A stretch of DNA of 64,000 bases from positions 27,487 through 91,486 of the forward strand of contig JANXBS010000011.1 in NCBI GenBank assembly GCA_025060615.1, written 5' to 3'. A model generated the notes under the pieces. The model was not told the DNA's origin. It made no database searches and was given only the letters and a program-made list of their open reading frames with translations. Shown here piece after piece: positions 14,111-19,767 of the stretch; the stretch's first letter is position 1; every line of letters starts with the position of its first letter. A program made the translations under genes and the position numbers. Origin of the DNA: Anaerolineae bacterium (lineage in GTDB: Bacteria > Chloroflexota > Anaerolineae > DUEN01).

Positions 14111-15031
14111 TCATCCTCGCTCGCGTAGGAATAGCTCCACCTCGGCGGCGGTTGGAAGTGAGGGCTGTGCACCTAACCTCGTCACTGAGATCGCGGCGAC
14201 GGCATGCGCGTAGCGCACGGCCGCCTCGAGCGGCTCGCCACGAGCCAACGCCACGGCCAACCCGCCGTTGAAGGCATCACCGGCAGCCGTGGCATCCACC
14301 GCGTCCACCCGGAAACCTGGGATGCGCTGCATGTGGTCGGACCCTTTGGCCACCAGCGCGCCCTCTGCGCCCAGGGTCACGATCACGGTGCCCACCCCCC
14401 ATCGTAACAAGGCCTGAGCTGCCCGCTCTGGCGTGCTCTCGCCGGTCAGAGCCGCCGCTTCGGTCTCATTAGGGGTTGCGATGTCTACGGCAGTGAAGAG
14501 CTCCGAGGGCAGTGGATGCGAAGGCGCAGGGGCTGGATTGAGGATCACTGTGGCGCCTGCAGCGCGGCCGGCCTGAGCCGATGCCTGCACCGTCTCAATG
14601 GGGATCTCGAGTTGCAGCAGGACGGCCCGTGCCTGGGCGAAGGCCGGCTTGGCTGCTTCGACATCGGCTGGGGTTAGGCGCCGATTTGCGCCAGGGGCTA
14701 CGGCGATGATGTTCTGCCCGCCGGGGCCAACAACGATTAGCGCCACGCCAGATGGAGCTTGCGGATCCTGGACCAAATAGCGGATATCTAGGCCCTCGCG
14801 GCGGAAGTTATTCACCGCTTCTCGGCCAAACATGTCTTGACCAACGCGAGCGACAAAAGTAACCGTCGCGCCCAACCGCGCGGCAGCTACGGCCTGGTTA
14901 GCCCCTTTGCCACCAGGGGCGATGACCAGGTCGCCGCCCAGGACCGTCTCCCCCGGCAGCGGCAGCCGGTCGGTCTGCACGATCATATCCGTATTCGAGG
15001 ACCCCACGACGACGATATGCGGAGAAGACAT
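14111..15031 (-). CDS. rbsK: ribokinase (PfkB family)
   Basis: The 306-residue protein has both PfkB signatures: the N-terminal GGDLVIAPGGKGANQAVAAARLGA, typical of ribokinase, and the C-terminal DAVDATAAGDAFNGGLAVAL with the catalytic Asp. The NTE motif (ATPNETEAAALTG) is also present. It phosphorylates ribose at O5 with ATP. No ribose transporter or rbsD lies nearby, so the exact sugar (ribose or deoxyribose) is not fixed by context. A promoter with TTGACT, N17 and TATAGT lies directly upstream, back to back with the promoter of the aromatic operon. Confidence 0.9.
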   Translation of the reverse strand: MSSPHIVVVGSSNTDMIVQTDRLPLPGETVLGGDLVIAPGGKGANQAVAAARLGATVTFVARVGQDMFGREAVNNFRREGLDIRYLVQDPQAPSGVALIVVGPGGQNIIAVAPGANRRLTPADVEAAKPAFAQARAVLLQLEIPIETVQASAQAGRAAGATVILNPAPAPSHPLPSELFTAVDIATPNETEAAALTGESTPERAAQALLRWGVGTVIVTLGAEGALVAKGSDHMQRIPGFRVDAVDATAAGDAFNGGLAVALARGEPLEAAVRYAHAVAAISVTRLGAQPSLPTAAEVELFLRERG

Positions 15032-15098: not shown

Positions 15099-15127
15099 TT
15101 GACAATTTTTCAGCCCCATGCTATCAT
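15099..15127 (+). promoter_or_regulatory. sigma-70 promoter of the aromatic amino acid operon
   Basis: TTGACA (15099-15104) and TATCAT (15122-15127) with a 17-base spacer predict initiation near 15134. The transcript then begins about 14 bases before the leader-peptide ATG at 15148. The ATG at 15118 lies inside this promoter and cannot be the leader start. Confidence 0.85.
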
Positions 15128-15147
15128 GGTTTTGGGTGAGGGTTCCG

Positions 15148-15324
15148 ATGGGGATGAGTAGGGCTTATTGTACCGCGAACCAGTGGATGAACACCGCTTG
15201 GGCGGCTTGTGGGAACGCGGTCCCGCGCTTCAGCTTCGGCTGGCGCGGGTTTTATTTTGCCTACTTTTTTGCCTACGCCAATGTAGGCCCATCGCCCCAC
15301 GCCCAGAGGAGGTCAACGGCTTAG
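15148..15324 (+). CDS. aromatic-residue-rich attenuator leader peptide
   Basis: The frame from ATG 15148 to TAG 15322-15324 encodes 58 residues. It contains three Trp, many Phe and Tyr, and the block FSFGWRGFYFAYFFAY, where 10 of 16 residues are aromatic. It begins about 14 bases after the predicted transcript start, behind a GAGGG site. It ends before an intrinsic terminator and then genes for chorismate mutase, prephenate dehydratase, DAHP synthases and prephenate dehydrogenase. This is the layout of pheA- or trp-type attenuators, where ribosome stalling at codons for scarce amino acids prevents termination. Alternative starts at 15154 or 15187 keep the aromatic block. The peptide itself probably has no other function. 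Confidence 0.8.
   Translation: MGMSRAYCTANQWMNTAWAACGNAVPRFSFGWRGFYFAYFFAYANVGPSPHAQRRSTA
15222..15258 (+). terminator. hairpin with UUCG loop and U-tract inside the leader-peptide gene
   Basis: CCCGCGC (15222-15228) pairs with GCGCGGG (15243-15249); an inner CAGC/GCTG stem closes a TTCG tetraloop. TTTTATTTT follows directly (15250-15258) and also encodes Phe-Tyr-Phe of the leader peptide. A ribosome translating the leader would melt the hairpin, so it could couple transcription to translation before the main attenuator. Confidence 0.75.
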
Positions 15325-15357
15325 CCAGCGTGGATTAGGACCGTAAGATCACATGCA

Positions 15358-15392
15358 GAGCGTGGAGCGATGAGCCCACGCTCTTTTATTTT
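15358..15392 (+). terminator. attenuator terminator upstream of aroH
   Basis: GAGCGTGG (15358-15365) and CCACGCTC (15376-15383) form an eight-pair stem with a 10-base loop, followed by TTTTATTTT. It lies between the leader peptide stop and the aroH ribosome binding site. A second AGCGTGG copy at 15327-15333 and a CCACGC at 15297-15302 offer competing pairs. Confidence 0.85.
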
Positions 15393-15444
15393 AAGCAAAA
15401 TCGCCGGCCTGGAGTTCCTTCACCTGATCAGCAAGGAGGACGCT

Positions 15445-15906
15445 ATGCCCTGTCGTGGGGTGCGCGGCGCCACTACTGCCGAGGCGAACACGCGCGAGGA
15501 GATCCTGCGAGCCACCCGTCAGCTCTTGGCACTGATGATCCGGCTGAACGGCATTGATCCGGCCGATGTCGCCAGTGCCATCTTCACGACCACTCCTGAT
15601 CTCAACGCCGAGTTTCCTGCCCTGGCTGCTCGCCAGTTGGGCTGGCTGGATGTTGCGCTCATCTGCACACACGAGATGAACGTGCCTGGGGCGCTTCCCC
15701 GCTGCATTCGTGTGCTAGTGCATTGGAACACGGAGAAGCCAGCCAATGAGATCATCCATGTCTATATTAAAGGCGCAGCCGGCCTCCGTCCTGACCTCTC
15801 CCAGCTTCCACCGGTGGATTGGGAGGAGCTGGAAGCCTGGATCTCGGCGCATTTGGCAACGCACTCCGGGGACGGCACAGCTCGATTTGAGGAGGAGAGG
15901 CGATGA
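15445..15906 (+). CDS. aroH: chorismate mutase, AroH class
   Basis: The enzyme converts chorismate to prephenate, the common precursor of Phe and Tyr. The 153-residue protein begins [16 protein letters not shown], the usual AroH N-terminus with the active-site Arg, and carries [20 protein letters not shown] and a later [17 protein letters not shown] segment typical of the trimeric AroH fold. The ATG at 15445 has an AAGGAGG site; the longer frame from 15370 would begin inside the attenuator terminator. The C-terminus extends about 25 residues beyond the Bacillus enzyme. The stop overlaps the pheA start by four bases. Confidence 0.93.
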
Positions 15907-16763
15907 GAGTCGTCGCATTTCAGGGTGAACATGGCGCGTACTCCGAGGAAGCCATTCGTCAGAAATTAGGGGCAGAGGTGAAGACTCTGCCTTGCCGTAC
16001 CTTTGAAGAGCTCTTCGCAGCCGTGGAGTCCGGCCGGGCCGACTTGGCCGCTCTCCCCGTGGAGAACTCCGTGGCAGGATCTATCAACCGATCCTACGAC
16101 CTGCTCTTGGAGCGCGATCTGAAGGTCTGGGGCGAGATCATGCTGCGCGTGCGACACAACCTGCTGGCCCCGCCTGGCACTACCCTCGAACAGCTCACGC
16201 AGGTCCGCTCCCACCCGCAGGCGTTAGCCCAGTGCGAACGATATCTCACCCAGCGCGGCCTCAAGGCTGTGCCCTGGTATGACACAGCCGGCAGCGCTAA
16301 GGAGCTGGCGGCCAATCCGGAGCCCGGTGTAGGCGTCATCGCTTCGGCGCTGGCCGCTGAGATCTATGGCCTGGAGATCCTAGAGCGCGATGTGCAGGAC
16401 CTGGCCTGGAACTACACTCGTTTCTTCCTCATCAGTCATCAGGAGCCGGAACGGCAAGATCCCAGCAAGACCTCCCTAGTCTTTGCCACCGCACACACGC
16501 CGGGGGCGCTTCACGCCTGCCTAGGCGAGTTCGCCAACCGTGGCATTAACCTGACTAAGATCGAGTCCCGCCCGCGCCGAAACCGGCCCTGGCACTACGT
16601 GTTCTACCTCGATTTCGAAGGCCACTGGAAGGAGGAACGCTGTAAAGAGGCGCTGGTAGGCCTGCTCTCACGTGCTGCCTTCGTGAAACTACTTGGCTCT
16701 TACCCTGCTGCGCCTCTGCCAGAAATTGAGAACGGAGGCCAAGAGGCCATCTTGCAAATCTAG
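15903..16763 (+). CDS. pheA: prephenate dehydratase with ACT domain
   Basis: The 286-residue monofunctional enzyme turns prephenate into phenylpyruvate. The catalytic domain opens with [18 protein letters not shown] and has [18 protein letters not shown]; the conserved Thr-Arg-Phe reads [10 protein letters not shown]. The C-terminal ACT domain shows [40 protein letters not shown], the Phe-binding GALx and ESRP motifs that confer feedback inhibition. The start ATG overlaps the aroH stop (ATGA), so the two are translationally coupled. Regulation adds to the transcriptional attenuator upstream. Confidence 0.95.
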
Positions 16764-16797: not shown

Positions 16798-17811
16798 ATG
16801 ATCATCGTGATGAAACAGGACGCAACTGTAAGCGAGATCGGAGCGGTGATCACCAAAGTGCAGGAGCTGGGATTACACCCCCACCCCATCTATGGGGAAA
16901 TTCGCACTGTCGTGGCAGTAGTAGGTGAAGAGCGTATCGTCAGTCCTGAGGTGTTTGAGGTAATGCCCGGTGTAGAACGCACGATGCGCGTCTTGCAACC
17001 GTATAAACTAGCCAGCCGCGAGTCGAAACCGGAGCCTTCCATCATCACTCTAAATGGGCTGCGCATCGGCGGGCAACAATTGGTTATAATGGCCGGCCCC
17101 TGTTCGGTGGAGAGCCGCTCGCAGTTGCTGGAGACAGCCCACGCAGTAAAAGAGGCTGGCGCTCACGTGCTGCGTGGTGGTGCCTTCAAGCCACGCACGT
17201 CCCCATACGCCTTTCAAGGCTTAGGCGAGAAGGGATTGGAGCTGCTGGCAGAGGCCAGGGCGGAGACGGGACTCCCTATTGTCACCGAAGTGATGACCCC
17301 AGAGACTGTCCCCCTGGTCGCTCGTTATGCCGACATCCTGCAGATTGGTGCTCGCAACATGCAGAATTATGGGCTCCTCCACGCAGTCGGCGAAGCCCAG
17401 AAGCCAGTATTGCTGAAGCGCGGCATGATGTCCACCATTGAAGAGCTGTTGATGTCGGCCGAGTACATTCTGAGCCACGGCAATTATCGCGTCATCCTGT
17501 GCGAGCGGGGCATCCGCACCTTCGAGCGAGCCACGCGCTTCACCTTCGACCTCAATGCCATCCCGGTGATCAAGCAGCTCTCCCATCTGCCGATCATCGC
17601 CGACCCCAGCCATGGCACGGGGCGGTGGGAGCTAGTCAACGCCATGTCACGCGCGGCCATCGCCGCTGGCGCCGATGGGCTGATCATCGAGGTGCATCCT
17701 CGTCCGGAGGAGGCGCTGTCAGATGGAGCGCAGGCGCTAAAGCCTGAGAAGTTCGCCCAGCTCGTGAAGGATGTGCGCCGAGTAGCAGAAGCCGTAGATC
17801 GCACACTGTAG
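16798..17811 (+). CDS. aroF: 3-deoxy-7-phosphoheptulonate synthase, first copy
   Basis: This commits erythrose 4-phosphate and phosphoenolpyruvate to the shikimate pathway. The 337 residues comprise an N-terminal ferredoxin-like domain (about 1-70), known to mediate Phe/Tyr feedback in Thermotoga-type enzymes, and a catalytic barrel with [39 protein letters not shown] and [25 protein letters not shown] region provides the ribosome binding site. A second closely related copy follows after 19 bases; the barrels are much more alike than the N-terminal domains. It is the third gene of the attenuator-controlled operon. Confidence 0.93.
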
Positions 17812-17830: not shown

Positions 17831-18844
17831 ATGATCATCGTGATGCGCGCGGGAGCGACAACCCAAGAGATCGCTGCAGTCGTGGATAAGGTAGAACGCA
17901 TGGGATTTCGAGCTCATCTCTCGCAGGGTGAAGAACGTACCATCGTCGGCGTGATCGGGGATGAGCGCCCAATTGATCCGGGCGTATTCGAGCTGATGGA
18001 GGGCGTCGAACGTACTGTTCCCATTTTGCGTCCGTTCAAGCTCGCCAGCCGCGACTTTCATCCGGCTGATTCGGTGTTCTCCATCAATGGGGTCAAGATC
18101 GGCGGGCAGCAGCTCTGCATCATGGCAGGTCCCTGTGCAGTGGAGAGCCGCCAGCAGATCCTCGAGGTCGCTCATGCGGTGAAGGAGGCCGGCGCGCATG
18201 TCCTGCGCGGTGGCGCCTTCAAACCGCGCACTTCCCCTTACTCGTTCCAGGGGTTAGGTCTGCGCGGGCTGGAGCTGCTGGCCGAGGCGCGAGAGGAGAC
18301 GGGGTTGCCCGTCGTCACCGAGGTGATGGCTCCTGAGGCGGTCTCCATGGTGGCTCAGTACGCGGACATCTTGCAGATCGGCACGCGCAATATGCAGAAC
18401 TTCGCCCTACTTCAGGCCGTGGGCAAGGCCAATGTGCCGGTGCTCCTCAAACGCGGGATGATGTCCACCATTGAGGAGTTCCTGATGTCGGCCGAATACA
18501 TCCTCGCCAACGGCAACCCACGGGTGATCCTGTGTGAAAGGGGCATCCGCACCTTCGAGCGATACACCCGCAACACGCTGGACATCAACGCTATCCCATC
18601 GCTGAAACAGCTCACGCATTTACCGGTGATCGCTGATCCCAGTCAAGGGACGGGCAAGTGGGATCTGGTGGCCCCCGTGTCCAAGGCCTGCATCGCCGCC
18701 GGCGCCGACGGGCTGATCATTGAGGTGCATCCTTGCCCCGAAGAGGCGCTCTCTGACCAGGCACAGCAGATCCGCCCCGAGGTGTTCGCCAAACTGATGG
18801 CGGATCTCAAAGCCCTGGCGCCACTGTTGGGCCGCACGTTGTAG
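17831..18844 (+). CDS. aroF: 3-deoxy-7-phosphoheptulonate synthase, second copy
   Basis: Also 337 residues, with the same ferredoxin-like domain plus barrel. The catalytic motifs ([50 protein letters not shown]) match the first copy almost exactly, whereas residues 1-70 diverge clearly. That pattern suggests tandem duplication followed by change in feedback specificity, perhaps one enzyme answering to Phe and the other to Tyr or Trp. The ribosome binding site is GGAAGGAG. The gene lies 19 bases after the first copy and about 50 bases before tyrA. Confidence 0.93.
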
Positions 18845-18891: not shown

Positions 18892-19767
18892 ATCGAGACT
18901 ACAAGCCTTCTCAAGGGTAAACGGGTTTGTATCGTCGGCTTGGGGTTAATGGGCGGGTCGTTAGGGATGGCATTGCGCCGAGCCGGCGCGGTGCAAGAGG
19001 TGATCGGGGTGGTGCGCCGCCCTGAAGCGGTGGAGGAGGCCATAACCCTAGGCGCCGTGGATCGGGCTATGCTAGACGCGCCTGCAGCGGTAGCTCAGGC
19101 CGACATCGTGGTGTTGTGTACGCCGGTGCGCACCATTATCCAGCAGATTGGGGAGCTGGGGCCGTATCTGCGGCCGGGCACGGTGCTCACCGACATGGGC
19201 AGCACCAAGCGCGCCATTTGTCAAGCGATGGAAACACTGCCTGACGGCGTGCAGCCGGTAGGTGCCCATCCCATGTGCGGCAAGGAGCAGGCTGGCATCG
19301 CTGCTGCCCAGCCCGATTTGTACCAAGGCAAGGTCTGGGTGGTCTCCCCGTTACCTCGTTCCTCGGCCGAGGCGGTGGTGACCGTGGAAGCGTTGGGGCA
19401 AGCTGTGGGTTCACGGGTGATCCGCCTGGAGCCGACCCGTCACGATCGGTTGGTGGCTGCCATCTCGCATCTGCCCTATCTGCTCGCATGCGGGCTGGTG
19501 GCCACAGCTGACGCGTTGGCACAGCACGACCCCGCCGTTTGGCAGGTGGCTGCCTCGGGCTTCCGCGATACCTCACGGTTGGCTGCATCGGAAGTGCGGA
19601 TGCTCCTAGATATCCTCTTCACTAACTGCGACGCTGTATTGGAGATGGTGGAACGCTTTCAAGCGGAACTTCAGGCGCTGGCGGATTGGCTGCGCCATGG
19701 TGATGAAGTTGGGTTGGCCGCCGAGCTGGAGCGGATCCGCCACATCCGTCGGGCACAGTATCCATGA
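18892..19767 (+). CDS. tyrA: prephenate dehydrogenase, probable AUC start
   Basis: The enzyme oxidises prephenate to 4-hydroxyphenylpyruvate with NAD, the Tyr branch. The Rossmann strand and loop KRVCIVGLGLMGGSLG sit at the N-terminus, the conserved HPMCGKEQAG follows, and the helical C-terminus has SHLPYLLACGLV and ASGFRDTSRLAAS. In frame, the first ordinary start is TTG 18940, which would delete the first Rossmann strand. The frame is open from 18874, but no ATG, GTG or TTG occurs before 18940. ATC at 18892 lies five bases after a GGGAGG site (18881-18886) and gives 291 residues. So either translation begins at AUC, or the assembly has an ATG-to-ATC error. It is the last gene of the operon. 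Confidence 0.85.
   Translation: METTSLLKGKRVCIVGLGLMGGSLGMALRRAGAVQEVIGVVRRPEAVEEAITLGAVDRAMLDAPAAVAQADIVVLCTPVRTIIQQIGELGPYLRPGTVLTDMGSTKRAICQAMETLPDGVQPVGAHPMCGKEQAGIAAAQPDLYQGKVWVVSPLPRSSAEAVVTVEALGQAVGSRVIRLEPTRHDRLVAAISHLPYLLACGLVATADALAQHDPAVWQVAASGFRDTSRLAASEVRMLLDILFTNCDAVLEMVERFQAELQALADWLRHGDEVGLAAELERIRHIRRAQYP

Follow-up and report, generated by a model that had tools for sequence, protein, structure and literature searches.

In the 64 kb window, by which we mean the whole stretch of DNA analysed, a sigma-70-type promoter, a short open reading frame and an intrinsic terminator are located 5' of a cluster of genes for aromatic amino acid biosynthesis (Table 1). The gene order aroH-pheA-aroF-aroF-tyrA, proposed in an initial annotation made from the sequence, is borne out by Pfam, which identified CM_1, PDT+ACT, two DAHP synthases and prephenate dehydrogenase. 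Judging from the sequence, the start of aroH, the first structural gene, is most likely at 15445, after AAGGAGG, and not at 15370, where an ATG sits in the terminator loop. The promoter had been called near-consensus, as it indeed is, and TTGACA/TATCAT aligns in three close relatives (L002-L004). Back to back with it, on the opposite strand, a second promoter-like sequence (TTGACT-17-TATAGT, 15087-15059) faces a divergent PfkB-family kinase gene (14111-15031).

Table 1. Features of the aroH locus, in window coordinates.
Feature	Position	Strand	Basis or remark
Sigma-70-type promoter TTGACA-17-TATCAT, extended -10 (TG)	15099-15127	+	11 of 12 consensus matches
Predicted 5' end and ribosome-binding region	15134-15153	+	Inferred from promoter, ~7 nt past -10
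Leader ORF, stop TAG 15322-15324	15154-15324	+	56 codons from conserved ATG; 58 from 15148
Terminator-like hairpin CCCGCGC...GCGCGGG and UUUUAUUUU	15222-15258	+	Sub-lineage only
Regulatory codons FSFGWRGFYFAYFFAY	15229-15276	+	6 Phe, 3 Tyr, 1 Trp
Arm 1:2 hairpin GCCTAC/GTAGGC (putative protector), last regulatory codons	15271-15288	+	p = 0.04 here
Arm 2, antiterminator 5' strand GGCCCATCGCCCCACGC, within leader ORF	15286-15302	+	Folding, relatives' duplexes
Arm 3, terminator 5' strand (15357-15365) and loop	15357-15376	+	15360-15376 pairs with arm 2
Arm 4 CCACGCTCT and U-tract TTTTATTTT of intrinsic terminator	15376-15392	+	Folding, alignment
aroH, chorismate mutase type I (CM_1), first operon gene	15445-15906	+	Pfam; SD AAGGAGG 15434-15440
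pheA, prephenate dehydratase with ACT (PDT+ACT)	15903-16763	+	Pfam
DAHP synthase, ferredoxin-like domain type, copy 1	16798-17811	+	Pfam
DAHP synthase, ferredoxin-like domain type, copy 2	17831-18844	+	Pfam
tyrA, prephenate dehydrogenase	18940-19767	+	Pfam

The short frame downstream of the promoter and 5' of the operon is predicted to be translated as a leader peptide. As initially annotated it is open over 58 residues (15148-15324), but a leader of 56 residues is somewhat likelier, since the conserved ATG of the relatives aligns with 15154. The 10 F/Y/W in 16 residues already pointed out in FSFGWRGFYFAYFFAY were found again and are reached nowhere else in any of the window's six frames, while in mononucleotide-shuffled windows (three frames) the aromatic maximum is 5-6 per 16 compared to the 10 of the real one. 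Further downstream, between arm 2 and the leader stop, a perfect Shine-Dalgarno-like AGGAGGT (15306-15312) is placed as if it were holding a terminating ribosome. At p<0.1, a similar site is seen before the stop in 10 of the 33 leaders of Anaerolineae type and in none of those of Chloroflexia, and a function as ribosome anchor is left here as an idea.

The two hairpins with U-tracts that had been noted were both recovered, at 15222-15249 and 15357-15384, each followed by TTTTATTTT. The decisive antiterminator, pairing 15286-15302 with 15360-15376, had not been named in the initial annotation; we designate its strands and those of the terminator as arms 2, 3 and 4 following the trp convention. 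When folding starts from 15285 on, the antiterminator appears as a long helix (z = -3.7, dinucleotide shuffles), and once arm 2 is masked the terminator 15357-15365/15376-15384 with its TTTTATTTT forms (z = -4.0). Given that 15360-15365 is used by both, the two structures are mutually exclusive. Computed for the window, the terminator probability is 0.00 when a ribosome is stalled at the last aromatic codon, 1.00 when it has reached the stop and 0.99 without any ribosome. A possible 1:2 protector hairpin over the regulatory codons (strands 15271-15276 and 15283-15288) is weakly supported, with p<0.05 in 9 of 51 loci and clearer cases in Chloroflexia (ACCAG/CTGGT, ACCGG/CCGGT, ACCGA/TCGGT). A fifth arm, formed by the leader 5' end (15134-15153) with arm 2, was rejected as a general feature (p<0.05 in 5 of 51 loci); in the window's family the p values of 0.053, <0.003, 0.04 and 0.74 (L001 to L004) are suggestive of such a pairing in three of the four members.

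For comparison, 80 related genomes and a named genome collection were searched for AroH. The loci nearest to that of the window belong to Caldilineae/Anaerolineae genomes, in line with the Chloroflexota-like genome initially proposed. An aromatic-rich frame is found 5' of aroH at most of the 30 loci of the window's class and at most Chloroflexia loci (Chloroflexus, Oscillochloris and relatives), and is absent at the Planctomycetota loci and at most of the Dehalococcoidia loci examined. The comparison with relatives suggested by the initial annotation turned out in its favour, the frame, the aromatic codons, the terminator and the antiterminator arm being kept in three close relatives as well as in distant families, in two classes. 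In Anaerolineae-type leaders 9-20 nt mostly separate the end of arm 2 from the stop, and in Chloroflexia arm 2 ends at the stop codon; hence in the former a ribosome at the stop would cover arm 2 only partly, which counts against attenuation of the classical kind. Among the loci without a leader, those of Pirellulales encode an AroH up to 84% identical to the window's (L032, L033, L036 and other Planctomycetota loci). Such identity combined with the absence of the leader points, at the sequence level, to aroH having moved between Anaerolineae and Planctomycetota, or else to mis-binning.

At 55 loci an aromatic frame is accompanied by a terminator, and in 44 of these the arm 2:arm 3 duplex, with arm 2 searched automatically, is better than 95% of shuffles. 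In A1, a MAFFT alignment of 47 of the 55, pairing is 96.5% in the terminator, 9 of whose 11 pairs show two-sided changes. In the antiterminator it is 74.7%, only 2.9 points above the shuffled mean of 71.8% but far above the 26-47% of slid registers. Covariation of the terminator was equalled in 0 of 500 shuffles, as was that of the antiterminator (0.253 vs 0.204 shuffled), these counts not being probabilities since the aligned sequences are related. Furthermore, changes are coupled between columns of all three arms (2, 3 and 4), for instance from C-G-C to T-A-T in 11 sequences and from A/G-T-A to G-C-G in 8, a concerted three-way change which is predicted by competition for arm 3.

A covariance model built of the element matches, at E <= 0.001, 247 of 396 genomes of the window's class, the E-values being rough and matches above ~1e-6 mostly false (unrelated terminators). 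Chloroflexota genomes of other classes were matched too, and in two families the scores were very strong. In a hand-picked genome set the model matches 3 of 3 Chloroflexia and 0 of 7 other Chloroflexota; in Planctomycetota 1 of 10 genomes is matched, marginally.

Phe and Tyr codons are both present in 49 of 49 tabulated leaders (last 16 codons of the block) and Trp codons in 18 of 49. The joint sensing of Phe, Tyr and Trp that had been claimed therefore stands for Phe and Tyr, but Trp is not general. UUU makes up 74% of the Phe codons in the leaders compared to 34% in the aroH genes. Among the fetched model matches, 81 of 96 precede a fitting gene and 15 do not, the first gene being identified in most cases through its resemblance to proteins of the window and to a few references, with Pfam also used. 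The leader codons follow this gene: Phe and Tyr before aroH (56 matches; 187 F, 189 Y), pheA (5 matches) and DAHP synthase (11 matches; 46 F, 28 Y, 10 W), Tyr before tyrS (4 matches; 15 Y, 1 F), Phe before pheS (1 match; 5 F, 1 Y), Thr before aspartokinase (1 match; 6 T) and His before hisS (1 match; 3 H), where the counts illustrate the match with the gene and do not test it, as the counted codon window was chosen for the expected residues, and where one case each stands behind the Thr, the His and the Phe-only variant. Shikimate kinase follows in the 2 remaining matches.

Some of these loci deserve individual mention. Although the model is one of aromatic leaders, it retrieved an HHAHA leader before hisS (L303, G498), probably a His version of the same switch, and the TTTTGTPAT leader before aspartokinase (L144, G051) is probably its Thr version. 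Leaders with Tyr codons lie before the Tyr-tRNA synthetases of L143, L151 and L228, and the enzyme of L143 carries an N-terminal B3/4 domain (Pfam).

Read from sequence, comparison with relatives and computed folding, the element is very probably a classical ribosome-mediated transcription attenuator which reads Phe and Tyr jointly and controls aroH-pheA-DAHPS-DAHPS-tyrA, so that the attenuator proposed initially is supported. We infer leader translation, stalling, readthrough and their kinetics to run as follows. RNA polymerase would start near 15134 and a ribosome would translate the leader. When charged tRNA-Phe or tRNA-Tyr is scarce, the ribosome would stall at 15229-15276 and leave arm 2 free to pair with 15360-15376 before arm 4 exists; the terminator would then be blocked and the operon transcribed. 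When both charged tRNAs are abundant, the ribosome would pass arm 2 and reach the stop at 15322, and with arm 2 occupied, arms 3 and 4 would pair and transcription would stop at the U-tract. In the finished leader at equilibrium, most relatives favour the terminator despite a stalled ribosome (median probability 0.98); folded as they are while arm 4 is still missing, 49 of 49 adopt the antiterminator. Since the terminator wins at equilibrium in most relatives, readthrough would have to be kinetic, decided before arm 4 is made.

The other hairpin lies within the leader frame itself. Its stem (15222-15249) runs into the U-tract TTTTATTTT, and the UUUUAUUUU which follows the stem encodes Phe-Tyr-Phe in the leader frame (UUU UAU UUU). 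Among the four family members the bases of the 37-nt hairpin stretch hardly vary, whereas the codons ahead of it diverge. A first, permissive test for such hairpins was uninformative and a strict version was used instead: under it, 19 of 113 leaders contain a hairpin with U-tract, compared to 5.2 expected after shuffling, mostly in one sub-lineage and with compensatory changes in the stem (CCCGCGC/GCGCGGG, CCCACGCC/GGCGTGGG, ACCCGC/GCGGGT). The in-leader hairpin could pause or terminate the polymerase when no ribosome follows. Tentatively, and with more doubt than confidence, we raise the possibility of a two-checkpoint attenuator, in which this terminator or pause hairpin would act besides the main terminator and the Phe/Tyr codons would double as its U-tract. 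If this is true, the in-leader hairpin would release a polymerase without a following ribosome, any ribosome on the leader would disarm it, and the same bases would be sensor codons and termination signal.

The same stretch bears on a different explanation, nascent-peptide arrest of the TnaC type, whereby the aromatic peptide would stall the ribosome in the tunnel on a free aromatic compound. Indeed, the peptide PRFS-GWRGFYF is nearly invariant within the window's family, but the in-leader hairpin accounts for this local constancy, and across the class aromatic content alone is conserved, with no fixed residue pattern. Moreover, the codons track the downstream gene (Tyr for tyrS, Thr for aspartokinase, His for hisS), and under arrest a rising ligand would induce a biosynthetic operon, which is the wrong sign. 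We give very little credence to arrest on these grounds. The terminator could also be seen as constitutive and partial, the leader tuning the basal level of expression or polarity (coupling/Rho) without responding to amino acids; a plain terminator would however predict neither an exclusive antiterminator that covaries in concert with it nor codons matched to the gene, and of the explanations weighed here this one appears the least probable.

A metabolite- or tRNA-binding RNA, riboswitch- or T-box-like, could likewise control the terminator with the leader frame being incidental. In its favour, the same genome has T-boxes before pheS (L163; E = 2.3e-18, slightly below the Rfam gathering score) and trpE (L200; 106.7 bits), where an aromatic leader of the type found at aroH had been considered and was rejected. 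At the aroH locus, however, Rfam 15, leader families included, gave no match at the gathering score, the T-box model RF00230 did not match, and a relaxed scan returned microRNA-family chance matches only, far below gathering scores. A1 contains no aptamer-like conserved element between leader and terminator, and the frame with its codons is the best-kept upstream feature. A binding RNA is thus as improbable to us as peptide arrest, and the joint Phe/Tyr attenuator is retained. With T-boxes at pheS and trpE and a leader peptide at aroH, both devices serve aromatic amino acids in one genome. Like the element of the window, a T-box (RF00230) senses tRNA charging for amino-acid genes; unlike it, it does so without a leader peptide and with one tRNA per element.

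Ribosome-mediated attenuators of the trp/his/pheA type are described in Proteobacteria and also in Actinobacteria and some Firmicutes (PMC2965389, PMC1183508, PMC9413887). The element of the window shares with them a leader ORF with regulatory codons, a terminator before the genes, an exclusive antiterminator and codons matched to the product. It differs in sensing Phe and Tyr jointly, in having arm 2 inside the ORF, in that a single recognisable RNA element is found ahead of different operons, its codons being exchanged, and in belonging to a different phylum, without an Rfam match. In E. coli, the Phe-rich leader pheL controls prephenate dehydratase; it reads Phe only and serves pheA, whereas the leader of the window would read Phe and Tyr and serve the whole branch including tyrA and the DAHP synthases. 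Multi-amino-acid leaders serving a shared pathway are those of the enterobacterial ilvGMEDA and thr operons, which have branched-chain/Thr codons where the window has Phe/Tyr, the likeness being drawn by description.

A genome-wide survey of 2010 named Proteobacteria and Actinobacteria as the only groups with known leader-peptide systems, to which it added a His leader in Firmicutes (PMC2965389), and a comparative study of Actinobacteria found no Phe or Tyr leader-peptide systems (PMC1262725). The initial annotation knew of no described case of this shape in the phylum, and in the open-licence literature we likewise found no description of leader-peptide attenuation in Chloroflexi/Chloroflexota. 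The mechanism is already known; what the searched literature does not appear to describe is the family, its occurrence in this phylum and the joint reading of Phe and Tyr.

With this finding, Chloroflexota would be added to the phyla that use leader-peptide attenuation, in the form of a system conserved broadly. Since tyrS, pheS, aspartokinase and hisS are preceded by a similar RNA frame with Tyr, Phe, Thr and His codons, respectively, nature can be said to have run the codon-swap experiment. Furthermore, since a T-box reads one tRNA and a leader can add two, we infer, with few genes behind it, a division of labour between T-boxes and leader peptides, which suggests a testable rule: a T-box would be used where one tRNA signal suffices, as for pheS and trpE, and a leader peptide where Phe and Tyr are to be read jointly.
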